DNA of 40,380 nt, taken from NCBI GenBank assembly GCA_030123765.1, contig JASJXX010000013.1, positions 1-40,380 of the forward strand, read 5' to 3'. The translations under genes were made by a program, and so were the position numbers. The DNA comes from Actinomycetota bacterium (GTDB lineage: Bacteria > Actinomycetota > Acidimicrobiia > Spongiisociales > UBA5794). This document shows positions 1,457-37,710 of this stretch, piece after piece. Under the pieces are notes generated by a model. It did not search any database and was not told the DNA's origin. It saw only the letters and a list, made by a program, of their open reading frames with translations. Within the stretch, counting starts at the first letter, position 1. The number at the start of each line of letters is the position of its first letter.

Positions 1457-3037
1457 TCACGTGGCCTTGGCCCGCGTCTGTTCCCTGAGGAGGCCGACCA
1501 CGATTCCGTCGACGACTGCTGTCCACGACGCGTCGATGATGTTCGTGTGGACGCCTACCGACCCCCACGTCGATTCAACGTCCGTGTGCTCGGTGAGCAC
1601 GCGGACCCGTGCACTCGTACCCTCTGCGCTATCGAGATCGCGTACGCGGTAGTCGGTCAGCTTGATGTGGTCGACCGCGGGATGTGCATCAACGAGGGCG
1701 GCGCGGAGCGCGCCATCCATCGCAGCCACTGGCCCGTCTCCCTCACGGGTCGATACGATCCGCTCACCGGCGACGACGACCTTGACGGTTGCTTCCGCAG
1801 TGACCTCGCCACCCCTGTTCTCAACGAGGACGCGGTAGGAGTCGAGGGTGAAGAAGTCGTGGCTCCATCCGGTCACCTGTCGTGCGAGTAGTTCGAACGA
1901 TCCTCCTGCTGCTTCATACTGATAGCCGGCGTGCTCGCGTTCCTTGACCCTGTCAACGACAGCCTGGGCCTGGTCCGACGTCAGGTCGAATCCGGAGGCC
2001 CTCGCCTTGGCTAGTACCGTTGATCGTCCCGCGAGCTCCGAGACGACGACCTGGGTCGCGTTCCCGACACATGTCGGATCCATGTGTTCGTAGGCGTCGG
2101 GCCGACGTGCCAGAGCGGAGGTGTGGAGTCCGGCCTTGTGCGTGAACGCCGATGCCCCGACGTAGGGGAGGTGTGGGTCGAGCGTCAGATTCACGACATC
2201 GGCGATGTGGTGGGAGACTGTGGTCAAGCGCTCCATCCGGTCGGCGGGGATCGTCTCGATGCCCATCTTCAGGGAGAGGTTCGGGATCACCGAGCACAAG
2301 TCAGCGTTCCCGGTACGTTCGCCGTAGCCGTTGATGCACCCCTGGACCTGGAACACTCCGCTCTGGACGGCGGCGAGCGAATTCCCGACAGCCATCCCGG
2401 CGTCGTTGTGAAAGTGACAACCGAATGTGCCTTCAGGGACCTGCTCGGTGACTGCGCCGACGATGCGTTGAATCTCATCGCTCAAGAATCCGCCATTCGT
2501 GTCACAGAGCACCAGGCGAGACGCCCCGGCGTCGTAGGCGCCCCGGAGTGCAGCCACAGCGAACTCAGGATCGGACCGATAGCCGTCGAAGAAGTGTTCG
2601 GCGTCGAAGAACACGTGGCGGCCCTGCTCACACAGGTAGGCGACGGTGTCACTGATCATCGCGACGGCCTCATCAAGAGAGGTTCTCAGCGCATGCTCGA
2701 CGTGGTAGTCCCAGGTCTTGCCGACGAGGCACACCGTCCTGGTGCCGGCTTCAAGGAGTTTTCGGACCTGAGGGTCGTCCTCGACTCTGATACCGGCCTT
2801 ACGGGTAGCGCCGAAGGCGACCAGCTCTGCTGCTTTCAGATCGAGCTCGGTGGGTGCCCGCCTGAAGAACTCATCCTCCTTCGGATTCGCGCCGGGCCAG
2901 CCGCCCTCGATGTAGGCGACACCGAGATCGTCCAGCAGAGAGCAGATCGTGAGCTTGTCGCGTACGGTGAGCGAGATCCCGAACTGCTGGATGCCGTCGC
3001 GCAGCGTTGTGTCGTATATCTCAACGGTTCTCTTCAT
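1457..3037 (-). CDS. cimA: (R)-citramalate synthase
   Basis: This 526-residue protein begins MKRTVEIYDTTLRDGIQQFG, the DRE-TIM metallolyase signature (DTTLRDG) shared by citramalate, isopropylmalate and homocitrate synthases. Further family features are HFFDGYRSDP, the metal-binding HFHNDAGMAVGNSLAA, the NGYGERTGNADLCSV segment and a C-terminal LeuA-dimer-like regulatory domain (about residues 390-520). Length and the HFFDGYR motif fit CimA better than LeuA. CimA condenses pyruvate with acetyl-CoA to citramalate, giving a threonine-independent route to isoleucine. ATG 3037 has only a weak ribosome site. An in-frame TTG at 3052 has GGAGGG 8 bases upstream, inside hairpin 3059-3081, and is a serious alternative start. 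The upstream Ile/Thr leader peptide suggests feedback through aminoacyl-tRNA supply. Confidence 0.93.
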   Translation of the reverse strand: MKRTVEIYDTTLRDGIQQFGISLTVRDKLTICSLLDDLGVAYIEGGWPGANPKEDEFFRRAPTELDLKAAELVAFGATRKAGIRVEDDPQVRKLLEAGTRTVCLVGKTWDYHVEHALRTSLDEAVAMISDTVAYLCEQGRHVFFDAEHFFDGYRSDPEFAVAALRGAYDAGASRLVLCDTNGGFLSDEIQRIVGAVTEQVPEGTFGCHFHNDAGMAVGNSLAAVQSGVFQVQGCINGYGERTGNADLCSVIPNLSLKMGIETIPADRMERLTTVSHHIADVVNLTLDPHLPYVGASAFTHKAGLHTSALARRPDAYEHMDPTCVGNATQVVVSELAGRSTVLAKARASGFDLTSDQAQAVVDRVKEREHAGYQYEAAGGSFELLARQVTGWSHDFFTLDSYRVLVENRGGEVTAEATVKVVVAGERIVSTREGDGPVAAMDGALRAALVDAHPAVDHIKLTDYRVRDLDSAEGTSARVRVLTEHTDVESTWGSVGVHTNIIDASWTAVVDGIVVGLLREQTRAKAT

Positions 3038-3058
3038 TGTGGGTCCATTCAACGAGAG

Positions 3059-3081
3059 AACCCTCCGACTCGCGGAGGGTT
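3059..3081 (-). promoter_or_regulatory. Hairpin B of the cimA leader, containing a Shine-Dalgarno-like GGAGGG
   Basis: A perfect 9-bp stem with a 5-base loop. On the minus strand the arms are AACCCTCCG and CGGAGGGTT. No T-run follows, so it is not a textbook intrinsic terminator. The downstream arm holds GGAGGG, 8 bases before an in-frame TTG (3052) of cimA, so the hairpin could hide the ribosome binding site. That role is inferred; the stem itself is directly visible. Confidence 0.65.
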
Positions 3082-3086
3082 CGAGA

Positions 3087-3111
3087 GCGCACACGTCGAG
3101 GACGTGTGCGC
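3087..3111 (-). promoter_or_regulatory. Hairpin A of the cimA leader
   Basis: A perfect 11-bp stem with a 3-base loop. On the minus strand the arms are GCGCACACGTC and GACGTGTGCGC. The 5' arm starts with the last base of the leader-peptide stop codon, so a ribosome at or near the stop would melt it. This placement is typical of leader-peptide attenuators. I did not find an obvious strong alternative pairing between this stem and hairpin B. Confidence 0.6.
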
Positions 3112-3146
3112 TAGGTGATAATGATCGTTGTAGTCGTGATCTGCAT
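3111..3146 (-). CDS. Ile/Thr-rich leader peptide of cimA (MQITTTTIIIT)
   Basis: Eleven codons followed by TAG. Nine of the eleven residues are Ile (4) or Thr (5), in two blocks: one Ile and four Thr, then three Ile and one Thr. Such runs are the hallmark of ribosome-mediated attenuation, as in the thr and ilv leader peptides of enterobacteria. It lies immediately 5' of two strong hairpins and the gene for an isoleucine-pathway enzyme. No Shine-Dalgarno sequence precedes the ATG. The -10 box (CATACT) ends 9 bases upstream, so the message probably starts at or just before the ATG and is translated leaderless. In-frame GTG at 3164 overlaps that promoter and is unlikely to be the start. The peptide itself is presumably non-functional. 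Confidence 0.72.
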   Translation of the reverse strand: MQITTTTIIIT

Positions 3147-3155
3147 TGAGTGACG

Positions 3156-3184
3156 AGTATGCACGACAAAACGCGGTTGGTCAA
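3156..3184 (-). promoter_or_regulatory. Promoter of the cimA leader transcript
   Basis: On the minus strand TTGACC (3184-3179, 5 of 6 matches to TTGACA) is followed by a 17-base spacer and CATACT (3161-3156, 4 of 6 matches to TATAAT). The predicted start point falls about 1-3 bases before the leader-peptide ATG at 3146. Spacing is the sigma-70 optimum. Confidence 0.6.
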
Positions 3185-3208: not shown

Positions 3209-3214
3209 TATGCT
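3209..3214 (+). promoter_or_regulatory. -10 box of leaderless trpS transcript
   Basis: TATGCT lies 6 bases before the trpS ATG at 3221. No Shine-Dalgarno sequence is present, so transcription probably starts at the start codon. No convincing -35 box is seen. Confidence 0.4.
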
Positions 3215-3220
3215 CGCCGG

Positions 3221-4204
3221 ATGCAGCATCGGATCTTCTCGGGTGTCCAGCCGACCGGCAACATTCACATCGGCAATTACCTCGGTGCGTTCCGCAACTG
3301 GGCGAGGCTCCAGGATGACTACGACACGATTTACTGCATCGTCGATCTGCACGCGATGACCGTCGACTACGACCCGGTAGCACTCGAGAAGGCCCGAGTC
3401 GACACGGCGAAGATTCTGCTGGCTCTCGGCGTCGACCCCGACAGGTCGCTGCTGTACACCCAGAGCCAGGTCCCGGGTCACGCCGAGCTCGCGTGGATCC
3501 TCGGCACGATGACACCGATGGGTGTCTTGGGCCGGATGACCCAGTTCAAGGAGAAGACGGCTGCCGGTGTCGCCTCGAATCTCGGCCTCTACTCCTACCC
3601 CGTCCTGATGGCTGCCGACATTCTGCTGTACCGGGCCGATCTCGTGCCGGTGGGAGATGATCAGCGTCAGCACATCGAGGTAACGAGGGATCTTGCGGAG
3701 CGCTTCAACAACCGGTTCGGCGATGTGTTCCCGATTCCAGAGGCGTACGTCCCGGAGACGTCTGCAAGGGTGATGTCGCTGACGGATCCAACGGCGAAGA
3801 TGTCCAAGTCCGATCCGCAGATGAAGAGCCGGATCTCACTCCTCGACGAACCTGACATGATCCGAAAGCGCATCCGATCCGCGGTGACTGACAGCGATCC
3901 CCAAGTGCGGTACGACACCGCGGCGAAGCCGGGGATCTCGAACCTGCTGGAGATCATGTCAGCCTGCACGGGCGAGCCGATCGAGAGCCTTGTCGACGAG
4001 TACGCGTCGGGCGGTTACGGGACCTTCAAAGATGCCGTCGCCGATGTAGTGATCGCGGAGATCGCGCCGGTCAGGGAGCGGTTCGAGGCGTTGGAGAACG
4101 GTGACGTACGAGAAGTGCTGCGGGTAGGCGGGGTTCGCGCGAATGAGATGGCAGGGACGTACCAGAGCGAAGTGCTGAGAGCAGTGGGCGTCGGGGCGTT
4201 CTGA
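3221..4204 (+). CDS. trpS: Tryptophanyl-tRNA synthetase
   Basis: A 327-residue class Ic aminoacyl-tRNA synthetase that charges tRNA-Trp with tryptophan in the cytoplasm. Directly visible are the HIGH-type motif in PTGNIHIGNYLGA (H16-N19), the VPVGDDQRQHIEVTRDLAERFN segment typical of bacterial TrpS, and the KMSKS loop (K193-S197). Length matches the usual 325-335 residues. An in-frame ATG exists at 3146, but the intervening 25 residues have no similarity to the family and overlap the divergent cimA promoter, so 3221 is chosen. The gene is divergent from cimA; the two promoters occupy adjacent, non-overlapping positions. Confidence 0.96.
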   Translation: MQHRIFSGVQPTGNIHIGNYLGAFRNWARLQDDYDTIYCIVDLHAMTVDYDPVALEKARVDTAKILLALGVDPDRSLLYTQSQVPGHAELAWILGTMTPMGVLGRMTQFKEKTAAGVASNLGLYSYPVLMAADILLYRADLVPVGDDQRQHIEVTRDLAERFNNRFGDVFPIPEAYVPETSARVMSLTDPTAKMSKSDPQMKSRISLLDEPDMIRKRIRSAVTDSDPQVRYDTAAKPGISNLLEIMSACTGEPIESLVDEYASGGYGTFKDAVADVVIAEIAPVRERFEALENGDVREVLRVGGVRANEMAGTYQSEVLRAVGVGAF

Positions 4205-10236: not shown

Positions 10237-10268
10237 ATTGAAAAGATCGACTAATGAAAGGGTGCGTG

Positions 10269-11405
10269 ATGCGCTCAGAGCTCAAGCGTCGAGGACGGTT
10301 CCTCGCACTGCTGTTTGTGTTCGCTCTCGTTGCTGCTGCTTGCGGCAACGGTGGAGACGAGACGACGGCGACGACTGAAGCCTCGACGGCCGAAACAACG
10401 ACGACGACGACCGAAGCCTCGACGGCCGAAACAACGACGACGACGACTGAGGCTCCGAAGCCTGGCGAAGGCGTCAAGGTCGGTATGGCTTACGACATCG
10501 GTGGCCGCGGAGACAAATCCTTCAACGACTCGGCTGCTGCCGGTCTCGACCGTGCGGTTGCTGAACTTGGTGTCGACGCGACAGAGCTCGAGCCGACCGC
10601 TGGTGGAGAGGACCGTGAGGAGAACCTCCGTCTCCTCGCCGAAGACGGCAATGACGTGATCTTCGGTATCGGCTTCGCGTTCGCGGACAGCATCGCTGCT
10701 GCTGCGGCCGACTTCCCTGACACGAACTTCGCGATCATCGACTCCGTGGTCGACGCTCCGAACGTTGCGTCGCTGGTCTTCGCCGAGCATGAGGGATCCG
10801 CTCTCGTCGGTGCCGCAGCGGCGCTCAAGACACAGACGAACACGATTGGTTTCATCGGTGGTGTCGCTGGTCTCGGTCTCATCGAGAAGTTCCAGGCCGG
10901 CTACGAATTCGGTGCCAAGCAGGTCAACCCTGACGTCGAGATTCTCGTTCAGTACCTGACTGAGTTCCCTGACTTCGCCGGTTTCAACGACCCTGCGAAG
11001 GGTAAGGAAGCTGCTCTCGCGATGTACGAGGCAGGCGCTGACGTGGTGTACCACGCTGCAGGCGGCTCCGGCGCTGGACTCTTCGAGGCGGCCAAGGAGA
11101 CCTCTGAGAACACAGGTTCGAAGGTGTGGGCCATCGGTGTCGACTCCGACCAGTACAACACCGTCGGCGAAGAGGTAAGGGAGTACATCCTCACCTCGAT
11201 GCTCAAGCGTGTTGACGTCGCGGTCTTCTCGACCACGGAGAACTTCGTCCTCCACGGGCAGCAGTCCGGCATCGTCGTCTTCAACCTTGAGGTTGACGGC
11301 GTCGGCTACTCCACTTCAGGTGGATTCATCGATGACATCACGGACCAGCTCGAAGAGCTTCGTCTCAAGATCATCAGTGGCGAACTTGAGGTTCCGAGCG
11401 AATAG
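10269..11405 (+). CDS. BMP family lipoprotein, nucleoside-type ABC substrate-binding protein
   Basis: This 378-residue secreted lipoprotein has a lipoprotein signal (RSELKRRGR, a hydrophobic core, then VAAAC with lipidated Cys25), a Thr/Ala/Glu-rich linker containing two exact 12-residue repeats, and a BMP/Med-type periplasmic-binding domain (about residues 70-375). Typical BMP motifs are VGMAYDIGGRGDKSFNDSA, DVIFGIGFAF, GFIGGVAGLGLIEKFQAGYEFGA, YHAAGGSGAGLFEAA and AIGVDSDQYNT. Proteins of this family (PnrA, BmpA, RnsB) bind purine or other nucleosides. ATG 10269 is chosen because AAAGGG lies 7-8 bases upstream; ATG 10254 is possible. The following three genes supply the matching transporter. 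Confidence 0.9.
   Translation: MRSELKRRGRFLALLFVFALVAAACGNGGDETTATTEASTAETTTTTTEASTAETTTTTTEAPKPGEGVKVGMAYDIGGRGDKSFNDSAAAGLDRAVAELGVDATELEPTAGGEDREENLRLLAEDGNDVIFGIGFAFADSIAAAAADFPDTNFAIIDSVVDAPNVASLVFAEHEGSALVGAAAALKTQTNTIGFIGGVAGLGLIEKFQAGYEFGAKQVNPDVEILVQYLTEFPDFAGFNDPAKGKEAALAMYEAGADVVYHAAGGSGAGLFEAAKETSENTGSKVWAIGVDSDQYNTVGEEVREYILTSMLKRVDVAVFSTTENFVLHGQQSGIVVFNLEVDGVGYSTSGGFIDDITDQLEELRLKIISGELEVPSE
10377..10448 (+). repeat. Two 36-bp tandem repeats encoding the lipoprotein Thr-rich linker
   Basis: Copies at 10377-10412 and 10413-10448 begin GAAGCCTCGACGG and end in ACGACGACGAC plus C or T. Each encodes 12 residues rich in Thr, Glu and Ala. They lie just after the lipidated Cys and form a flexible tether; expansion or contraction by slippage would stay in frame. 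Confidence 0.85.
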
Positions 11406-11427
11406 TTCGCGGATCGAACCACTCTCA

Positions 11428-11469
11428 ATACAGCGAAGCCCGAGGCGCTAGCCTCGGGCTTCGCTGTAT
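11428..11469 (+). terminator. Strong hairpin between the lipoprotein and transporter genes
   Basis: A perfect 19-bp stem with loop GCTA, beginning 22 bases after the lipoprotein stop and ending 33 bases before the ATPase start. No T-run follows. Such intercistronic hairpins commonly stabilise or partially terminate the message, giving more binding protein than transporter. Confidence 0.7.
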
Positions 11470-11502
11470 GCACAACCTCTTGAGTGACGAAGGAGCCGCC
11501 AG

Positions 11503-13035
11503 GTGAACGAACGCCAGAGAGTCGTCGAACTCGTCGACATAACCAAGACGTTCCCCGGCGTGCTCGCCAACGACAACGCGCACCTCTCCGTCGGGCTCGC
11601 AGAGATTCATGCTGTCGTTGGAGAGAATGGTGCGGGAAAATCGACACTCGTGAAGATCCTGTACGGAATGCAGACACCCGACAGTGGAACGGTCCGGGTT
11701 AAGGGCAAAGACGTACACTTTCGCTCGCCGAAGGACGCCATCCGCAGCGGCATCGGCATGGTGCACCAGCACTTCATGCTTGCTGACAACCTCACCGTTC
11801 TTGAGAACATCATCCTCGGTGCGGAGCCAACGCGGGGAATCGCGCTCGATCTCAGGGGAGCGCGAGACAAGATCCTCTCTCTCTGCGACCAGTACGGTAT
11901 GAAGCTCGATCCGGATGTGCTTGTTGAAGAGTTGAGCATCGGTGAGCGGCAACGCATCGAGATCATGAAGGTTCTCTACCGCGGTGCGACGATTCTCATT
12001 CTCGACGAGCCGACTGCTGTGCTCGTACCACAGGAAGTGGACGACCTCTTTGTGTCCTTGCGGGAGCTCCAAGCCGAAGGCGTCACGATCATCTTCATCT
12101 CGCACAAGCTCGACGAGGTGCTCACGATCTCGGATGCCATCACCGTGATGCGAGCCGGCAGAACGGTTGCATCGGTGAAGCCTGGAGACATCACGGCTCG
12201 TGATCTCGCTGAGCTCATGGTGGGATCGGACCTCCCGACGCCTGATACCACGGTGTCAACGGTGACCGATGTCGTGGAGCTCCGCATCGTCGGGCTCACA
12301 AGTCTTCACACGGACGGTCGCGTCGCGATCGAGGACATCACGTTCGATATCCATCGAGGTGAGATCGTCGGAATTGCAGGTGTCGAAGGGAACGGACAGC
12401 CCCAGCTCGTGGACACGATCCTTGGCGTGCGAGACGCCGTGGCAGGTGCCTTGCATCTTGCGGGGAAGGATATCTCGGGGTTCGACACGAAGATGCGGAG
12501 GGACGAAGGCATCGGCATCATCCCGGAAGACCGTCATCGCCAGGGTCTGCTCCTCGACTCGCCCCTGTGGGAGAACGCGATGCTCGGCCATCAGTCGAAG
12601 AAGCCGTTCGCCAGGGGAATCTGGGTCGACAGAACAGGAGCACGTGACATCACCCGGGAGATCGTCGAACGTTTCGATGTGCGGACGCCGGGCGTCGACG
12701 TGAACGCCGTGGCTCTCTCGGGCGGGAACCAGCAGAAGCTGATCGTAGGGAAAGAGTTGATCCTCGACCCGTCAGTCCTCATCGCTGCTCACCCGACGCG
12801 AGGCATTGACGTCGGCGCGCAGGCAGCCGTCTGGGAGGAGCTCAGACAGGCCCGACGAGAGGGGATGGCGATACTGCTGATCTCTGCGGACCTCGAGGAG
12901 CTGATTGGCCTCTCCGACACCCTGCTGGTTCTCTTCGACGGACGGATCGTCGCGAAGCTCGATCCCGCGGATGTCACTCCGAAGACGCTCGGTTCACACA
13001 TGACGGGTGTCGCTGTTGAGGAGGAGGCGTTGTGA
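11503..13035 (+). CDS. Nucleoside-type ABC transporter ATP-binding protein (two NBDs)
   Basis: The 510-residue protein carries two fused nucleotide-binding domains, as in YufO/RnsA/RbsA-type importers. NBD1: Walker A GENGAGKST, signature LSIGERQR, Walker B ILILDEPTA and an H-loop in ISHKLDE. NBD2: GVEGNGQ in place of a full Walker A, intact signature LSGGNQQK, and VLIAAHPTRGIDVGA in place of the usual DE. This asymmetry is normal for the family. It powers uptake through the two permeases that follow. GTG 11503 has GAAGGAG 7 bases upstream. The stop overlaps the next start by 4 bases. Confidence 0.95.
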   Translation: MNERQRVVELVDITKTFPGVLANDNAHLSVGLAEIHAVVGENGAGKSTLVKILYGMQTPDSGTVRVKGKDVHFRSPKDAIRSGIGMVHQHFMLADNLTVLENIILGAEPTRGIALDLRGARDKILSLCDQYGMKLDPDVLVEELSIGERQRIEIMKVLYRGATILILDEPTAVLVPQEVDDLFVSLRELQAEGVTIIFISHKLDEVLTISDAITVMRAGRTVASVKPGDITARDLAELMVGSDLPTPDTTVSTVTDVVELRIVGLTSLHTDGRVAIEDITFDIHRGEIVGIAGVEGNGQPQLVDTILGVRDAVAGALHLAGKDISGFDTKMRRDEGIGIIPEDRHRQGLLLDSPLWENAMLGHQSKKPFARGIWVDRTGARDITREIVERFDVRTPGVDVNAVALSGGNQQKLIVGKELILDPSVLIAAHPTRGIDVGAQAAVWEELRQARREGMAILLISADLEELIGLSDTLLVLFDGRIVAKLDPADVTPKTLGSHMTGVAVEEEAL

Positions 13036-14150
13036 TCAAGAAGATCGGCCTCGCGATCGTCGCTCCCGTCGTCGCGTTCACGTTCGCCGTCGGCGTCGCT
13101 GTCCTCGCTCTCCTGGCAGTCGGCGTCAACCCGATCGAGGCGTTCGGACTCATGTGGGATTTCGCGTCGACACCCACGTCTGTCGCTTCAATCATCAACA
13201 GGTCTGTCCCGCTCTACGTCGCGGCGGTCGCCGTCGCTATCGGATTCCAGATGAAGCTCTTCAACATCGGCGTTGAGGGCCAGTATCTCGTTGCCGCGCT
13301 GTTTGCCGGCTGGGTCGGGGGAAGCATCGTGTTGTGGGCGCCGTTCCACGTTCTCGTCGTTGTTCTCGTCGCCGCCGGTGTTGGGGCCCTGTGGGCAGGC
13401 GTCGCTGGTCTTCTCAAGGTGACCCGAGGCGTCAACGAGGTCGTTGCGACGATCATGCTGAACTTCATCGGGTTCTCCGTGATCGGCTTCTTTCTCGGAA
13501 ACTTCTTCTCCGTCGACAGCGGTGCGCTCAACCAGTCGACCCCGCCACTGCCCCCCTCAGCGCAGATCCCGGGCCTCAACTGGATATTCACACTTTTCGG
13601 GTTCGCTGAGCCTCGGGGCACGGAGCTTCAGGGCTTCGTGATCATCGCCATCCTCATTGGAATCGGCTATCACCTACTCGTGTGGAAGACGCGGTTCGGC
13701 TTCGAGCTGCGGGCATCGGGCATGAACCCGGGCGCCGCCCGAATGGCGGGTGTGAACCCCAAGAAGATGATTCTCTACACGATGCTGATCTCGGGCGGCA
13801 TAGCCGGGATGGTCGGACTCTCAACGATGCTCGGCAAGTTGCACGCCTTCACGCAGGACTTCCCCCGAGGACTGGGTTTCGCAGGCATCGCCGTGGCCCT
13901 GCTCGGGCGAAACAACGCGATCGGGATGGCGCTCGGTGCGTTGCTGTTCGGCTTCATGGAGCGGTCCGCGTTGATTCTTGACCTCAACGACATCCCGAAG
14001 GAGGTCGTCCAGATCATCCAGGGTGTCGTGGTGCTCTCGGTCGTCATCGCGTATGAGGTTGTGGCGAGAATCGTGAAGAATCGCGAGATCAAGACGGCGA
14101 GCGACGCTACCCAGGCTTCCACGGCCGGACCGCAGGAGGTGACAGCGTGA
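13032..14150 (+). CDS. Nucleoside-type ABC transporter permease (first subunit)
   Basis: A 372-residue polytopic membrane protein of the branched-chain amino acid/ribose/nucleoside permease family (BPD_transp_2; YufP/RnsC type). Recognisable are the core FNIGVEGQYLVAALFAGWVG, TRGVNEVVATIMLNFIGF, and the cytoplasmic coupling region ASGMNPGAARMAGVNPKKM. About ten hydrophobic segments. GTG 13032 overlaps the ATPase stop (GTGA), and its own stop overlaps the next permease start in the same way, indicating coupled translation of a heterodimeric channel. Confidence 0.94.
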   Translation: MIKKIGLAIVAPVVAFTFAVGVAVLALLAVGVNPIEAFGLMWDFASTPTSVASIINRSVPLYVAAVAVAIGFQMKLFNIGVEGQYLVAALFAGWVGGSIVLWAPFHVLVVVLVAAGVGALWAGVAGLLKVTRGVNEVVATIMLNFIGFSVIGFFLGNFFSVDSGALNQSTPPLPPSAQIPGLNWIFTLFGFAEPRGTELQGFVIIAILIGIGYHLLVWKTRFGFELRASGMNPGAARMAGVNPKKMILYTMLISGGIAGMVGLSTMLGKLHAFTQDFPRGLGFAGIAVALLGRNNAIGMALGALLFGFMERSALILDLNDIPKEVVQIIQGVVVLSVVIAYEVVARIVKNREIKTASDATQASTAGPQEVTA

Positions 14151-29206: not shown

Positions 29207-29272
29207 GCGGGGAGGACATCTCTGCGGGTGCAGTCAACATCAGCGGCATGAGGCTTCGACTAGTGTTTGGCC

Positions 29273-32188
29273 ATGGAGAGCCAGAGCGGCGTCGCATTTC
29301 GTCTCCTCGGGCCGCTTGAGGTTGTGGTCGATGGTCAGACCGTGGATCCTGGCGGTCCCAAGCAGAGGGCGCTTCTTGCGTACCTCGTGCTCCATCTCGG
29401 CGTACCGGTCAGCACCGGCACCTTGATTGAGGCTGTGTGGGGCGACGGCCCACCTGATGGGGCGCTCCGCTCCCTCCGGACGTACGTCTCGAATCTGCGC
29501 CGTCTCCTCGGGTCGGGCGTCGAATTGCGGGGCGAGCAGGCGACCTACCGTCTCGACTTCCGAGCGATCGAGATCGACGTTGATCACTTTCGGTCGATGG
29601 TTGATGACGCTGCCGATGTGCAAGATCGTCGTGAACGCGCCGAGATGCTCGACGTGGCCCTCCGACTTTGGCGTGGCCCCTTTCTGGTCGATGTGGATCG
29701 TCCCTGGGTGCAGGAGGCGTCATCGACCCTCGAGTGGGAGCATCGACGAGCGATAGCGGCGTGGGCCGACGCCACCATCGCCGTCGGTCACCCCGCCCGC
29801 GTGATCTCTGTGATCGAGCGAGCGGTGACCGACGCCCCGCTCGACGAGCAGCTGTGTGGTCTGCTCATGCGCGCTCTGTACGGGTCTGGTCGCCAGGCTG
29901 ACGCCCTCGCCGTCTATCGGCGGTTGCGAGACATCCTGGCCCGGGACCTCGGCGTGGAACCGGGACCCGAGCTGCGCACCCTCGAGGAGCAGATTCTGGT
30001 CCACGAACAATCGATGGTCGGCGCCGAGCCCGAATGGCTGTTGCCTGTACCCGCAGCCAGCCTCGTTGGTCGCGCCGCCGAGATCGAAGATCTTCTCGCA
30101 CGGATCGAGCAGGTCCGGTTGTTGACACTCACCGGCCCCGGCGGGGTTGGAAAGACCCGGTTGGCGATCGAGGTGGGTCGTCGAATCGTCGAGCGCGGAG
30201 ATCAGGCTGTGTTCTTCGCTGACCTGTCCACCGTCTTTGACGAGTCTGCGACGGACGCGGTCCTCGCGGCGAGCGCCCGCGTCCAATCTCATCCAGACTC
30301 GGGACCGCTCGCCAGCCTGATTGAGTATCTTCGGCCCCGCGATGTACTCCTCATCGTCGACAACTGTGAGCACCTTGCCACAACTGTGGCTCGATCGATT
30401 GCGGCATTGATACGGAGCTGCCCACGGGTCACGGTGGTTGCTACGAGTAGGGCGCCGCTGCAGGTTGACGGCGAGCTCGAGTGGAGCACCCCGTCCCTGG
30501 CCCTCCCCGACCGCGCCGATACCTCCATCGAGGAACTCACTCGATCGCCGGCGGTGGAGCTGCTGTTGCAGAGGGCGTCCACTGCGTTCGTGGTGACCGA
30601 AGCGAACCGGGCCGACGTAGTTGAGCTCTGCAGCAGCCTGGACGGACTCCCTCTTGCCCTGGAACTTGCCGCTTCTCGAATGGGATCGATGACCCCCGCC
30701 GAGATAATCACGACGCTGGGTTCGCGCGTTCAGATCTTGGGAGGGGTCTCGTCAGATGATTCGCGGCATAAGACCCTCGACGCCACCATTGGATGGTCCT
30801 ACGAGCTGCTTACTGAGGAATCGCGGGGGTTGCTTCGTGGGCTCGGGGTGATGTCGGGGTGGTTCCTACTCGAGGATGTGCTCTCCGTCTGCGGATTCGA
30901 CTCTGTATCAGCGGACGAGGTGAGAGAGCGGCTCTCCACGCTGGTTGAGCAGTCCCTGGTGATGGCCGATACGTCGGGGCTCCGGACCCGATACCGACTC
31001 CTCGAGACGATCCGCAGGTTCGCTCTCGCAAGGCTCGGTGACGATGAGCCGGACACAAGGAGACGCCACGCATGGCACTTCGCGGCGCTGGCTGAACTCG
31101 AGGCGGCGAGGCTCCTCACCCGTGAGGAGGGTGATGCGGCTGCCGAGCTCTCTGCTGCATATGACAACCTCCGCAGCGCGGTCGGTTGGGCGATGGAGAC
31201 CGGGCACATCGAGACCGCCTCCCGCATTGTGGCTTCCGCTCCCGACTGGGCCTACTGGCGGTCGCGCAACGAGCTGGCCGGATGGGCACAGTGGGTGTGG
31301 GAGAACACCACACCGGCCGACCCACGGTGGAGAGCGGTGTGCGGGAGCGCCGCTCGGGGTGCGTGGGTTGAGGGCCGTTTTGACGAAGCGATCCAGTTTG
31401 GCAGCGCAGCTTCGGGCGCTGCGAACACCGTAAGTGCGCGATCTGGGCACCCTGACGACGTCATCGCAGACGTCGCTCTCTATCGCGGCGACGCGCAGGC
31501 GGCGTTGGATCACTACTCCCGAGTCGTGGCAGAGGCGAGTGAGAGCGGAGACATCACGAGGGAGATCTGGGCCACCTACTACGTCGCTGTCATCCACGCT
31601 GTGCTCCGGCACCCTGACGAAGCAGCCGAAGTTGCCACGACGGCGTTGGCCCGTGCCAGGGAGACGGGCAACCCGACGGCGTTGGCGTTCTCCCTGTACG
31701 CCAAGGGTCTCGCTTTGAAGCATGGGTCGCCGGAAGAGGCGGTAGCGATGTTCGAGGAGGCGGCGCGAATGGCCGACTCGGTGGGAAATGACTGGTTCAG
31801 CGGCATCGCCCGGATGGAGCTCGTCTCTACCAAGGCAGGCCACGGCGACCTGAGCGGGGCGTTCCGAGACTTCGCTGGCGTAATCGACCACTGGCACCGG
31901 GCTGGAGACGACACGCAGCTCCGCCTCGCGTGGCGTTACCTGGTGAGTGCATTGGACCACGTCGGACTCCCCGATGAGGCGGCTCTCCTCTCGGGTGCCC
32001 TCCTCGCGGACACGAAGTCGGTCCTGACGCTCCCACATCCACGTCTGATGGACCAGCTCCTCGGTGCGCTGGGCAAAGCCGAATACGCTCGTCTCATCGT
32101 CCGGGGCTCGGTCATGTCGGTTCCCGAACTGGTGGTCGTCAGCCTCGATGCCATCGACCGGGCACGGCACATGCCGCACGAGCCCTGA
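29273..32188 (+). CDS. AfsR/SARP-like regulator 1: wHTH-BTAD-NB-ARC-TPR
   Basis: This 971-residue protein has an OmpR-type winged helix (about 8-95; FRLLGPLEVVVDG, ALRSLRTYVSNLRRLLG), a bacterial transcriptional activation domain (about 96-245; ALRLWRGPFLVD, ALAVYRRLRDILARDLGVEPGPELR), an AP-ATPase/NB-ARC core with Walker A GPGGVGKT (288-295) and LLIVDNCEHL, and a long C-terminal TPR-like helical region (about 590-960). This is the AfsR plan: DNA-binding activator gated by an ATPase and ligand or partner sensing. ATG 29273 has TAGTGT 6 bases upstream, so probably leaderless. It is followed by the DUF1326-DUF2182 pair on the same strand, a likely target. Confidence 0.93.
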   Translation: MESQSGVAFRLLGPLEVVVDGQTVDPGGPKQRALLAYLVLHLGVPVSTGTLIEAVWGDGPPDGALRSLRTYVSNLRRLLGSGVELRGEQATYRLDFRAIEIDVDHFRSMVDDAADVQDRRERAEMLDVALRLWRGPFLVDVDRPWVQEASSTLEWEHRRAIAAWADATIAVGHPARVISVIERAVTDAPLDEQLCGLLMRALYGSGRQADALAVYRRLRDILARDLGVEPGPELRTLEEQILVHEQSMVGAEPEWLLPVPAASLVGRAAEIEDLLARIEQVRLLTLTGPGGVGKTRLAIEVGRRIVERGDQAVFFADLSTVFDESATDAVLAASARVQSHPDSGPLASLIEYLRPRDVLLIVDNCEHLATTVARSIAALIRSCPRVTVVATSRAPLQVDGELEWSTPSLALPDRADTSIEELTRSPAVELLLQRASTAFVVTEANRADVVELCSSLDGLPLALELAASRMGSMTPAEIITTLGSRVQILGGVSSDDSRHKTLDATIGWSYELLTEESRGLLRGLGVMSGWFLLEDVLSVCGFDSVSADEVRERLSTLVEQSLVMADTSGLRTRYRLLETIRRFALARLGDDEPDTRRRHAWHFAALAELEAARLLTREEGDAAAELSAAYDNLRSAVGWAMETGHIETASRIVASAPDWAYWRSRNELAGWAQWVWENTTPADPRWRAVCGSAARGAWVEGRFDEAIQFGSAASGAANTVSARSGHPDDVIADVALYRGDAQAALDHYSRVVAEASESGDITREIWATYYVAVIHAVLRHPDEAAEVATTALARARETGNPTALAFSLYAKGLALKHGSPEEAVAMFEEAARMADSVGNDWFSGIARMELVSTKAGHGDLSGAFRDFAGVIDHWHRAGDDTQLRLAWRYLVSALDHVGLPDEAALLSGALLADTKSVLTLPHPRLMDQLLGALGKAEYARLIVRGSVMSVPELVVVSLDAIDRARHMPHEP

Positions 32189-34386: not shown

Positions 34387-37300
34387 CTAGCCCAGTCGAC
34401 CCCCGAAGCGTCGGGCTGTCTTCTGTGCCCGGGTGCGCAGCAGTTGCGTGCCGACGCGGGCGACCTCCTCGTACAGATCTCTCAACTCGGTCGTGCCGCT
34501 CTCGCGCTCACCGCTCTGGAGAAGAGCCTCCGCGAGCCGCCAGCGGGCGTAGAGCTGGTAGTAGGCGTAGTCGGCGATAGCCAGAGCGTCGGCCCAACGA
34601 TCGGGACTCGGCTCGGTGGCGCGCGTCATCTCGGCTTCGGCGAAGGCGAGATTCTGTGCATGCGTCATCACCGAGGTCCAGGAGGCGACTCGAGGCGGAT
34701 GATCTTCAAGGATGCGATTCATCTGGGTGAGGGTCTGTTGTGCCCGCTCCACGTGCTCCTCCGAGCCGGTATCGAGGGCTGCATCGATTTCGGCACGTAC
34801 CAAGGGATTGAGCACACCCAGCTTGGCTGCCTCACCTGTTGGGTGGACTGCCATTGCAAGATAGGTCTGGGCGATCCGTGTCACATCGTCGAGTCGCCCC
34901 AGGTCGGCGGCGACCTCAGCGGCCAGCGGGTAGTAGGTGTGGGCCCATCGTGGACTCACACCTCTCGACTCCAATTCTTCGACATCCTTCCACGCCTCTC
35001 TCAGGTTCCCCCTCATCCAGGAGAGACTCGAACGGGCCATCAGAAAGATGGTCCGGTTGTAGCCTTCGAGTGTTCGGCTCCCCATCCGGGCGACGGACTC
35101 GTTGGCACGGTCGAAGTCCCCGACCTGCATGTAGACCCAAGGAAGCCAGTCCGTCGCGGTCGACGCCCAGGTGGCGGCGTCCAGAGATACGAGTGACATC
35201 CAGTCTTCGGTGACCCGGAGCGGCTCTGTGCGCCGGGCCACCGGATCGAGCATGTAGTTGTAGATGGAGAGGCCATAGATCTGGTTTATCGTCGTCACGT
35301 CCCCAGAGGCGGCGGCCTGGTCCAGAGCGATTCGTTGTTGTTCGAGACCGTCCTCCGTACGGCCGTTCCAGCAGTAGGCATCGGCCATGAGCTGCCTAGC
35401 GAGGATCTCGGCGAAGATATCGCCCTTGTTCAGGGCGATATCTTCCACCTCCGCGGCGAGCGGCAACATCAACTCCGGATCGGACTCCACGCCCATGAAG
35501 TGGCACAATTGTACCGTGGAGATGACCCACGTCTTGGTGAGCGGCGTGTCGAGACTGGCCAGCAGCTGGTGTGCCGAGTCGGCTTCGGAGACTGCTCCCT
35601 CGATGTCCTCGGAGTAGGCGAGGCATCGAGCGAGCAGCGCCCGAATCAGTGCTACGTCACGTTCATCCTCGGCGACCACCAGTGCGGATCGCAGCGTCGT
35701 GGCGGCGTTGCCGAGGTGTCCCGTGAAGTACCAGTGCCACCCTAGAGCCTGAGAGAGCACGACCACAGCCGGGTGGTCGCTCGCTGTTCTCGACCAGTCG
35801 AGGGCGGCACGGAGATTGTCGCTCTCCGACTCCAGCGCCTCGGTGAGGTCGCTCTGTCCAGTGCCCACCGCTCGCTCCCACAGATCGTTGATGAGGGCGA
35901 GGCACCACCGCTGGTGTTGACGGTAGATGGTCGTCGTGTCCGCGGTCTCCTCAAACCGGTGGCTGGCATACTGGCGGACGGATTCGAGCAGGCGGTACCT
36001 CGTTCCAAGGCGGGTCTCGTAGGTGGTGAGTAGTGATTTGTCGACGAGGTTCGCGACGACGGGTATGACCTGTCTCGGGGCGATTCCTGCGCCCGAGACG
36101 ACCTGCTCTGCGGCCTCGAGTGGGAAGCCCCCTCGGAAAACACTGAGCTGGTTGAGGATCGCCTTCTCGGTACGATCGAGGAGCCGGTAGCTCCATTCAA
36201 TGGTCGCGTGAAGCGTTTGTTGACGTGGCGGTGCCGTTGACAGCCCGCTTGTGAGCAGCTGTAGATGATCGTCGAGGCGATCGGCGATGGTCTCGACGGT
36301 CAGTGATCGGGTACGCGCCGCGGCTAGTTCTATAGCGAGCGGCATTCCGTCGAGCCGCGAGCAGATGCTTGCTACTGCACGGACGTTCAGATCGTCGATT
36401 CCGAACGAGGGGTCGGCTTGCGTTGCCCGTCGCTCGAACAACTGGATGGCCTCGTACTTCAGCGCCTCTCCAGGCTCCGATGGGTCGTTGCTGGGGAACC
36501 TCATTCCCGCGATCTTGTAGACCGACTCACCTGGCACACGGAGTGGCTCGCGGCTGGTGGCGAGGATCTTCAACTTGGGCGAGGACTGCAGCAGCCGCTG
36601 GGTGGTGGCGGCACAACCCTCGAGGAGGTGTTCGCAGTTGTCGAGGAGGATGAGGATCTTCTCCCCGGTAGTCGCCTCGGCTATGACTTCGAGCACATCG
36701 TCGCCTTTTGGCTTGAGACCCACCACTCGGGCTATCTCGGTTGCAACCATGTCGGGGTCCCGGGTGGCGGCGAGCTCCACCAGCCAGACGCCGTCGGGGA
36801 AGCGGTGGAGCATGCGTCTGGCCACCTGGATGGCGAGGCGGGTCTTCCCCGACCCGCCGGCGCCGGTCAGGGTCACGAGCCGGTGTTCAGAGAGTAATTT
36901 GCTGGTCTGGTTCATCTCCTCTTCCCGCCCTATGAAGTTGCTCAATTCGAGAGGCAGGTTGTGTGGGGTCTGGGTCAGTGTCTTGTCATGGAGGAGAATC
37001 CGATCTTCGAGACGACGGAGGCGTCCACCGGGCTCCAGGCCGATCTCGGCCAGATGTTGCGATACCTCTTGGTATGCACGAAGCGCCTCGGCGTGTCGGC
37101 CGAGGCGGTAACGGGCAGTCATCAGGTGCTCCCAGAGGTGCTCCCGAAGGGGGTGCTCAATGACCAGGCTCTCGAGATCGGGGAGAACGTCGGCGGGACG
37201 GCCCAGCCCGAGGAGGGCCTCGGCCCGGATCTCGACGAGTTGCAGATGGAGTTCCTCGAGTTTGGCGATAGCTGGTTGGGCGAAGTCATCGTCCATCAGT

Positions 37301-37710
37301 TCGCTGAACGGCCGACCCCGCCACAGATGGAGGGCATCTTCTGCAGTGGATAGAGCCGAGTCCCAGTCTCGCCGATCCGCCCTGCCTTTACTCTCCTCAC
37401 CCAGTCGCAGAAACTCAGACGCGTCCAGACTCGTGGCGTTGACGTCGAGTCGATAGCCGTGACCCTCGGTAACGATCGCGCCATTACCCAGAATCTTCCG
37501 CAGAGCGGACACGTGAGTCTGGAGGGCCGCCTTCGCTGTAGGCGGCGGGCGATCGGGCCAGAAGCGGTCGATCAACACGTCGGTACTTATGCGCCGACCG
37601 GCGTCCAGGGCGAGAATCGCAAGCAGGCGGCGGTGCGACGGTCGATTTACGTCGATCTCGGTCCCCTCTCGCGCCCGAAGGGGACCCAGCACCTCGAACT
37701 GCACGCTCAC
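34387..37710 (-). CDS. AfsR/SARP-like regulator 2: wHTH-BTAD-NB-ARC-TPR
   Basis: The product has 1107 residues. Order: winged helix (about 3-92; FEVLGPLRAREG, ALQTHVSALRKILG, TEGHGYRLDV), BTAD (about 98-245; ALHLWRGRPFSEL, ALRAYQEVSQHLAEIGLEPGGRLR), a second segment NLPLELSNFIGREEE leading to an NB-ARC ATPase with Walker A GAGGSGKT (283-290) and ILILLDNCEHLL, and a long TPR-like C-terminus (about 640-1095). The N-terminal part is that of SARP transcriptional activators. GTG 37710 has AAGGAGGGG upstream, a strong ribosome site. It is divergent from the FAD oxidase across a 463-base gap carrying heptamer repeats. It is a distant paralogue of the regulator at 29273. Confidence 0.94.
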   Translation of the reverse strand: MSVQFEVLGPLRAREGTEIDVNRPSHRRLLAILALDAGRRISTDVLIDRFWPDRPPPTAKAALQTHVSALRKILGNGAIVTEGHGYRLDVNATSLDASEFLRLGEESKGRADRRDWDSALSTAEDALHLWRGRPFSELMDDDFAQPAIAKLEELHLQLVEIRAEALLGLGRPADVLPDLESLVIEHPLREHLWEHLMTARYRLGRHAEALRAYQEVSQHLAEIGLEPGGRLRRLEDRILLHDKTLTQTPHNLPLELSNFIGREEEMNQTSKLLSEHRLVTLTGAGGSGKTRLAIQVARRMLHRFPDGVWLVELAATRDPDMVATEIARVVGLKPKGDDVLEVIAEATTGEKILILLDNCEHLLEGCAATTQRLLQSSPKLKILATSREPLRVPGESVYKIAGMRFPSNDPSEPGEALKYEAIQLFERRATQADPSFGIDDLNVRAVASICSRLDGMPLAIELAAARTRSLTVETIADRLDDHLQLLTSGLSTAPPRQQTLHATIEWSYRLLDRTEKAILNQLSVFRGGFPLEAAEQVVSGAGIAPRQVIPVVANLVDKSLLTTYETRLGTRYRLLESVRQYASHRFEETADTTTIYRQHQRWCLALINDLWERAVGTGQSDLTEALESESDNLRAALDWSRTASDHPAVVVLSQALGWHWYFTGHLGNAATTLRSALVVAEDERDVALIRALLARCLAYSEDIEGAVSEADSAHQLLASLDTPLTKTWVISTVQLCHFMGVESDPELMLPLAAEVEDIALNKGDIFAEILARQLMADAYCWNGRTEDGLEQQRIALDQAAASGDVTTINQIYGLSIYNYMLDPVARRTEPLRVTEDWMSLVSLDAATWASTATDWLPWVYMQVGDFDRANESVARMGSRTLEGYNRTIFLMARSSLSWMRGNLREAWKDVEELESRGVSPRWAHTYYPLAAEVAADLGRLDDVTRIAQTYLAMAVHPTGEAAKLGVLNPLVRAEIDAALDTGSEEHVERAQQTLTQMNRILEDHPPRVASWTSVMTHAQNLAFAEAEMTRATEPSPDRWADALAIADYAYYQLYARWRLAEALLQSGERESGTTELRDLYEEVARVGTQLLRTRAQKTARRFGGRLG

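Follow-up and report, generated by a model that had tools for sequence, protein, structure and literature searches.

In the window, by which is meant the whole stretch of 40,380 nucleotides of DNA analyzed here, the gene for (R)-citramalate synthase, cimA, is preceded by a compact element that is best understood as an Ile-tRNA-controlled, ribosome-mediated transcription attenuator, a predicted role to which a probability of roughly 0.8 can be assigned. CimA catalyzes the committed step in the citramalate route to isoleucine, and the candidate attenuator consists of a promoter, a short leader ORF ending in isoleucine codons and two abutting hairpins (Table 1). It is conserved across a class of bacteria, most of them uncultured, and seems to represent a known kind of attenuator, apparently without the competing fold of the textbook cases. 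The sequence-only reading of this DNA had claimed leader-peptide control of cimA from the same parts; the promoter, the leader ORF, the two hairpins, and the ATG of cimA all lie on the minus strand where it had put them, and the conserved promoter-leader units and covarying stems described below support its central claim.

Table 1. Features of the cimA leader region and of cimA, in coordinates of the window
Feature	Position	Strand	Remarks
Promoter TTGACC-17 nt-CATACT	3156..3184	-	TTGACC 3184-3179, CATACT 3161-3156
Leader ORF MQITTTTIIIT, predicted leaderless	3111..3146	-	ATG at 3146, stop TAG 3113-3111
Control codons ATC-ATT-ATC (Ile-Ile-Ile)	3117..3125	-	End one codon ahead of stop
Hairpin 1, stall-sensing stem (proposed role)	3086..3112	-	From fold; 5' arm begins inside stop codon
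Hairpin 2, intrinsic-terminator-like stem (AACCCTCCG...CGGAGGGTT)	3058..3082	-	From fold; 3' arm with GGAGGG
Imperfect U-tract after hairpin 2, UUCUCUCG	3050..3059	-	Good U-tract in most relatives
cimA, (R)-citramalate synthase	1457..3037	-	ATG start at 3037; TIGR00977 citramal_synth 642 bits, cut-off 450

The identity of CimA was established with the NCBIfam equivalog model TIGR00977, and its start is the ATG at 3037 rather than a TTG at 3052, in agreement with relatives that carry their own ribosome site downstream of hairpin 2. On the minus strand the region upstream of the gene folds with an energy of -51.3 kcal/mol, whereas shuffled sequences average -32.7 (z = -5.1) and 0 of 200 shuffles did as well. 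The divergent neighbor of cimA is trpS, for which a TATGCT box is apparently placed 6 nt ahead of the ATG (3209-3221 on the plus strand, noted by eye only), and which may hence be leaderless as well. Elsewhere in the window, two large proteins with BTAD transcriptional activator domains are coded near each other (29267-32188, plus strand; 34387-37710, minus strand), and the genes at 10254-14150 (plus strand), for a Bmp-type substrate-binding protein, an ABC ATPase with two matched stretches and a BPD_transp_2 permease, likely specify a nucleoside-type importer.

Of 60 related genomes, 58 gave CimA-type matches, though in some only distant ones of the 2-isopropylmalate-synthase kind with ~30% identity. 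The regions upstream of cimA were read at 47 loci, the window's own included; 45 have the element, which in the window's order lies directly ahead of cimA, and two (L004 and L047) are without it. The latter locus appears foreign to its genome. The former, from the window's own genus, displays a repeated GC-rich unit upstream of cimA in place of the attenuator. In all 45 leader-bearing regions the promoter, the isoleucine codons, and both stems recur, which raises the element above chance. In 45/45, a -35 box TTGAC(N) is separated by 16-17 nt from a -10 box that is a TA-box variant, and a scan of the window returned one promoter where 0.2 were expected, bearing out the consensus-spaced promoter of the sequence-only reading. 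Transcripts usually start about 6-8 nt after the -10 box. The leader start codon is found 6-11 nt after it in each of the 45 loci; in the window the distance is 9 nt, i.e., at or within ~3 nt of the expected transcript start. As this is where transcripts normally begin, the leader ORF can be read as essentially leaderless, as had been suspected. The leader peptides range from 7 to 14 residues across these loci, with the window's being coded by ATG CAG ATC ACG ACT ACA ACG ATC ATT ATC ACC TAG.

Both isoleucine and threonine had been put forward as the amino acids sensed, and the relatives retain the former part of the codon run but not the latter. Counting back from the stop codon, isoleucine occupies position -2 in 44/45, -3 in 39/45, and -4 in 39/45 of the order-level leaders, always as ATC or ATT, and most of these peptides terminate in Ile-Ile-Ile-X. 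Class-wide, position -2 is isoleucine in 39 of 40 leaders, with -3 and -4 being mostly isoleucine or valine. The fixed isoleucines at -4 to -2 support isoleucine as the sensed amino acid, and with codons for the end product of the pathway in the leader and CimA coded downstream, the arrangement is that expected of an attenuator in the broad sense. Threonine constitutes 26% of the leader prefix versus 24 +/- 1.6% in a codon-position-preserving shuffle and is fixed nowhere, reaching at most 23/45 at any position. Since its share matches the shuffle and no position is fixed, co-sensing of tRNA-Thr is unsupported and was dropped.

Both hairpins also emerge from unconstrained single-sequence folds. 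Their covariance model, R2, was built from 43 order-level sequences and superseded a first model, R1, which had only 4 pairs in hairpin 1. In an alignment of 85 loci, 96.2% of cells are paired across both stems, and pair-keeping changes on both sides are seen in 16 of the 17 base pairs, namely, 10/10 in hairpin 1 and 6/7 in hairpin 2, where 99.3% of cells are paired; conservation of the stems with compensatory changes in relatives, a test set beforehand, was thus observed. The covariation score is 0.473 as opposed to 0.177 +/- 0.009 for shuffled alignments and at most 0.094 for slid controls, and while fitting the alignment to the model favors the structure somewhat, the margin over the controls is very large. 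The geometry is likewise constrained: measured in 85 loci from the first base of the stop codon, hairpin 1 starts at -1 to +3 nt and its 5' arm, spanning about +0 to +12, ends at +9 to +16, while the gap to hairpin 2 is 0-5 nt (median 3) in 85/85. A search of Rfam with 10 loci yielded no gathering-level match, and only chance-level matches for the window region; this is an RNA element without an Rfam family, with no membership in the T-box or any other Rfam family.

The earlier remark that neither hairpin has a T-run is accurate for the window, where TTCTCTCG follows hairpin 2 and where the U-tract is weak as in the rest of its genus, but does not extend to the family, in which the 8 nt after the hairpin-2 core contain a mean of 5.6 U (85 loci). 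In many relatives hairpin 2 is a textbook terminator (e.g., CCCTTCGCCATGCGAAGGGTTTTTTG in L030), such that a covarying GC stem with a U-tract stands between the leader ORF and the gene. On account of this U-tract, and of cimA's own ribosome site lying downstream, hairpin 2 looks like an intrinsic terminator rather than a mask over a ribosome site. The U-tract in relatives likewise favors transcription attenuation of the two mechanisms that had been offered.

Under the proposed mechanism, transcription would begin at or next to the leader AUG, and a 70S ribosome would start on the leaderless message. When the stop codon occupies the A site, the ribosome shields a further ~13 nt. For a comparable leader, a 26-nt ribosome footprint centered on the codon was used (PMC13236596). 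Given that the 5' arm of hairpin 1 ends at the distances stated above, a ribosome at the stop codon would cover this arm, and one at the isoleucine codons mostly would not, making hairpin 1 a putative stall sensor, placed like the antiterminator in the model for Mycobacterium tuberculosis ilvB1. With ample isoleucine, the ribosome would reach the stop codon with its footprint over that arm; hairpin 2 would then fold as an intrinsic terminator and RNA polymerase would halt before cimA. With scarce isoleucine, the ribosome would wait at the isoleucine codons just ahead of the last sense codon, so that hairpin 1 could fold; once folded, it would hinder the terminator either in forming or in entering the RNA exit channel, resulting in readthrough into cimA. 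Lying next to the terminator, it would keep the terminator base from closing inside that channel. We infer the transcript start, the isoleucine response, and termination from sequence; the steric step, by which hairpin 1 would counteract hairpin 2, is put forward more tentatively, at somewhat under even odds, because no antiterminator was found while the adjacency of 0-5 nt is kept throughout.

As to such an antiterminator, neither covariation nor a fixed-register search of the 85-locus alignment recovered a conserved alternative helix, and the few non-native column pairs that covary are isolated, forming no helix. The 3' arm of hairpin 1 and the 5' arm of hairpin 2 fold together at -3.3 kcal/mol versus -4.5 for shuffles, i.e., less well; partition functions have both hairpins coexisting, whether or not a ribosome is stalled (P about 0.93 and 0.99); and in folding of the nascent RNA, hairpin 1 takes bases of hairpin 2 in 0/85 loci. 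Neither an antiterminator that excludes the terminator, as in classical trp-type systems, nor boundary bases common to both hairpins, as in the Corynebacterium 'fast' attenuator or ilvB-II (0/85), were thus found, and the expectation that the mechanism would differ from the enterobacterial model holds in that no competing antiterminator is apparent.

These results bear on two alternatives that would replace the steric step alone. In the first, attenuation would be of the classical three-segment type, with an antiterminator pairing sequences of hairpins 1 and 2 in a register too variable among species or too short to be seen. It has precedent in the order of elements and abutting hairpins of the Corynebacterium 'fast' attenuator (PMC11857589) and in the mutually exclusive antiterminator proposed for M. 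tuberculosis ilvB1 (PMC13236596), and it is modeled on C. glutamicum ilvBNC, in which 3 nt swap at the boundary; nevertheless, with the missing conserved helix, the isolated covarying columns, the poor pairing of the cross-hairpin arms, and the lack of overlap at every locus, it is unlikely, at perhaps one chance in four. In the second, which is a little less likely again, hairpin 1 would be a polymerase pause hairpin awaiting 70S loading, with regulation occurring via the coupling of ribosome and polymerase at hairpin 2. Pause hairpins of this sort occur in the leaders of the trp and his attenuators. A pausing role has also been proposed for the first C. glutamicum hairpin (PMC11857589), but pausing alone does not explain readthrough on starvation and leaves the abutment of the hairpins in 85/85 without an explanation.

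Control at the level of translation is improbable. Here, the ribosome site of cimA or of the TTG at 3052 would be hidden by hairpin 2, to be freed by a leader ribosome stalled as in the mycobacterial polycysteine leaders. Those leaders, the subject of work by Canestrari in 2020, are leaderless ORFs that reportedly act on translation by hiding the ribosome site, and they are similar to the cimA leader, itself predicted to be leaderless, in the short ORF with end-product codons and in the order of the stems. The window itself offers a GGAGGG in hairpin 2 located 8 nt from the TTG and a weak ribosome site ahead of the cimA ATG. However, in 37 of 44 relatives a good GGAG-type site immediately precedes the cimA ATG, lying outside hairpin 2 on its downstream side rather than inside the leader structure as in the polycysteine type; this disposes of the TTG start with a hidden ribosome site that had been suggested as an option, and has the GGAGGG read as belonging to a terminator-like stem, as its 3' arm. 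Furthermore, a stalled ribosome leaves hairpin 2 free, hairpin 2 bears a U-tract, and the TTG does not share the cimA frame in, e.g., L005. In contrast to the polycysteine leaders, cimA has a terminator-like hairpin 2 and a free ribosome site. That an ordinary constitutive promoter merely happens to be followed by a fortuitous short ORF and a hairpin pair with no regulatory role, as the deduction of regulation from sequence and the genus member without the element might allow, is scarcely credible in the face of class-wide conservation, fixed codons, and compensatory changes.

Transcription attenuation in response to isoleucine also accords with the wider distribution of the element. A sample of 296 genomes of the class gave R2 matches in 198, and one of 396 genomes of the phylum in 59. 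At 40 further loci from the class matches, mostly outside the order, the next gene is a leuB homologue in most and cimA in the rest; in L096 leuB is directly followed by cimA, and in L148 and L180 an ilvE-like aminotransferase (judged from sequence likeness by eye) precedes cimA, the genes of these two loci being placed by their coordinates on the contigs that also carry the leuB attenuators of G113 and G116. Among 20 sampled matches outside the class, 16 are ahead of ilvB with leucine, valine, and isoleucine codons and two ahead of cimA (L229, L230); in the stretch read for the other two (L228, L235) no reference gene was found. The sampled targets are genes of BCAA synthesis: cimA, leuB(-ilvE)-cimA, and ilvB operons. 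With isoleucine leaders before cimA and Leu/Val/Ile leaders before ilvB, the coded amino acid of the leader appears to track the pathway of the downstream gene. In Candidatus Actinomarina, at 31-33% GC (31-32% in the stretch), MKKIIIII* is followed by two abutting stems, U9, and then cimA in a very compact form, with the cimA start coming shortly after U9 (L158:810-905, L168:810-905); the arrangement is kept there although the sequence differs.

Related elements also occur in the window's own genome, ahead of ilvB-ilvN-ilvC-leuA operons and with the leaders MTIRHGLVLILR and MAGRLGLVLLL. Two such operons are present, on contig 111 (L083, L050) and contig 99 (L082, L049), each with a related attenuator. 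The contig-99 copy resembles a contig of the sister genome G003 (L085), and because of this same-looking contig, contig 99 may be a stray in the bin. Its leader ATG (L049:1396-1440) is ~37 nt after the -10 box and so not leaderless, with the hairpins and the stop-codon geometry unchanged. A further R2 match in this genome, on contig 19 (E = 0.2), was judged to be due to chance. The ilvB leaders of other actinobacterial classes (L216-L227, L235) share a nearly invariant nucleotide run, CTCGTACTTAT (Leu-Val-Leu-Ile), before the stop codon, a degree of conservation for which codon choice by itself does not seem to account. One record labeled Armatimonadetes (ATM 393; L128) has a CimA 77% identical to that of the window and the same attenuator, and is probably a mislabeled Acidimicrobiia bin.

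The E. coli trp, his, and ilv attenuators have a ribosome site on the leader and overlapping 1:2, 2:3, and 3:4 segments, with the sensor stem sharing bases with the terminator. The logic of leader codon, ribosome position, and terminator is alike at cimA, yet there is no 2:3 pairing and the leader seems to be without a ribosome site. Leader peptides, many of them leaderless, have been described in Streptomyces (PMC8079986) and other Actinobacteria (PMC1262725), and relatives with experimental support are known in ilvBNC of Corynebacterium (PMC11857589, PMC10272879) and in ilvB1NC of M. tuberculosis, the latter having LVVI codons (PMC13236596). Corynebacterium ilvBNC and ilvB-II (PMC11857589, PMC10272879) share with it a short BCAA-codon leader ORF (leaderless in C. 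glutamicum), adjacent hairpins, an intrinsic terminator, and a BCAA operon downstream. They differ in that the antiterminator and terminator of ilvBNC overlap at a boundary trinucleotide and an anti-antiterminator is present (PMC11857589), as against cimA stems that overlap in 0/85, a cimA target, and codons for isoleucine only. M. tuberculosis ilvB1NC likewise has control codons before the stop, a terminator following them, and a first hairpin masked by a ribosome at the stop codon, with a reporter response demonstrated (PMC13236596); its leader is, however, long, with multi-BCAA codons and structures mutually exclusive according to the authors, whereas the cimA stems can coexist. The Streptomyces lividans leaders (ilvL, trpL1, leuL, and others; PMC8079986) are comparable short ORFs, leaderless as is predicted for cimA and in some cases with two hairpins and a U-stretch after them, but belong to other genes, with no cimA leader among them and no covariation analysis of an abutting pair. 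Counting against an isoleucine attenuator, replacing the putative control codons of the ilvB leader in S. coelicolor reportedly had no effect, as cited in PMC1262725. The literature searched yielded no leader control of cimA, the nearest described systems being concerned with other genes, and those of its papers that deal with upstream hairpins and readthrough of terminators gave no information on abutting stems.

To our knowledge, this would be the first leader control described for citramalate synthase. More broadly, a compact, covariance-supported RNA element marks genes of isoleucine and BCAA synthesis across Acidimicrobiia and reaches other Actinomycetota. That it stands for widespread actinobacterial BCAA attenuators lacking any antiterminator, in which an abutting stem would block the terminator sterically at the RNA exit channel, is more doubtful than the steric step at cimA itself, perhaps a one-in-three prospect. 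If the steric model is true, removal of the leader start codon would lead to readthrough, the opposite of what trp displays for untranslated leaders. The abutting, non-overlapping stems would provide a direct test of the assumption that attenuators need a competing antiterminator.
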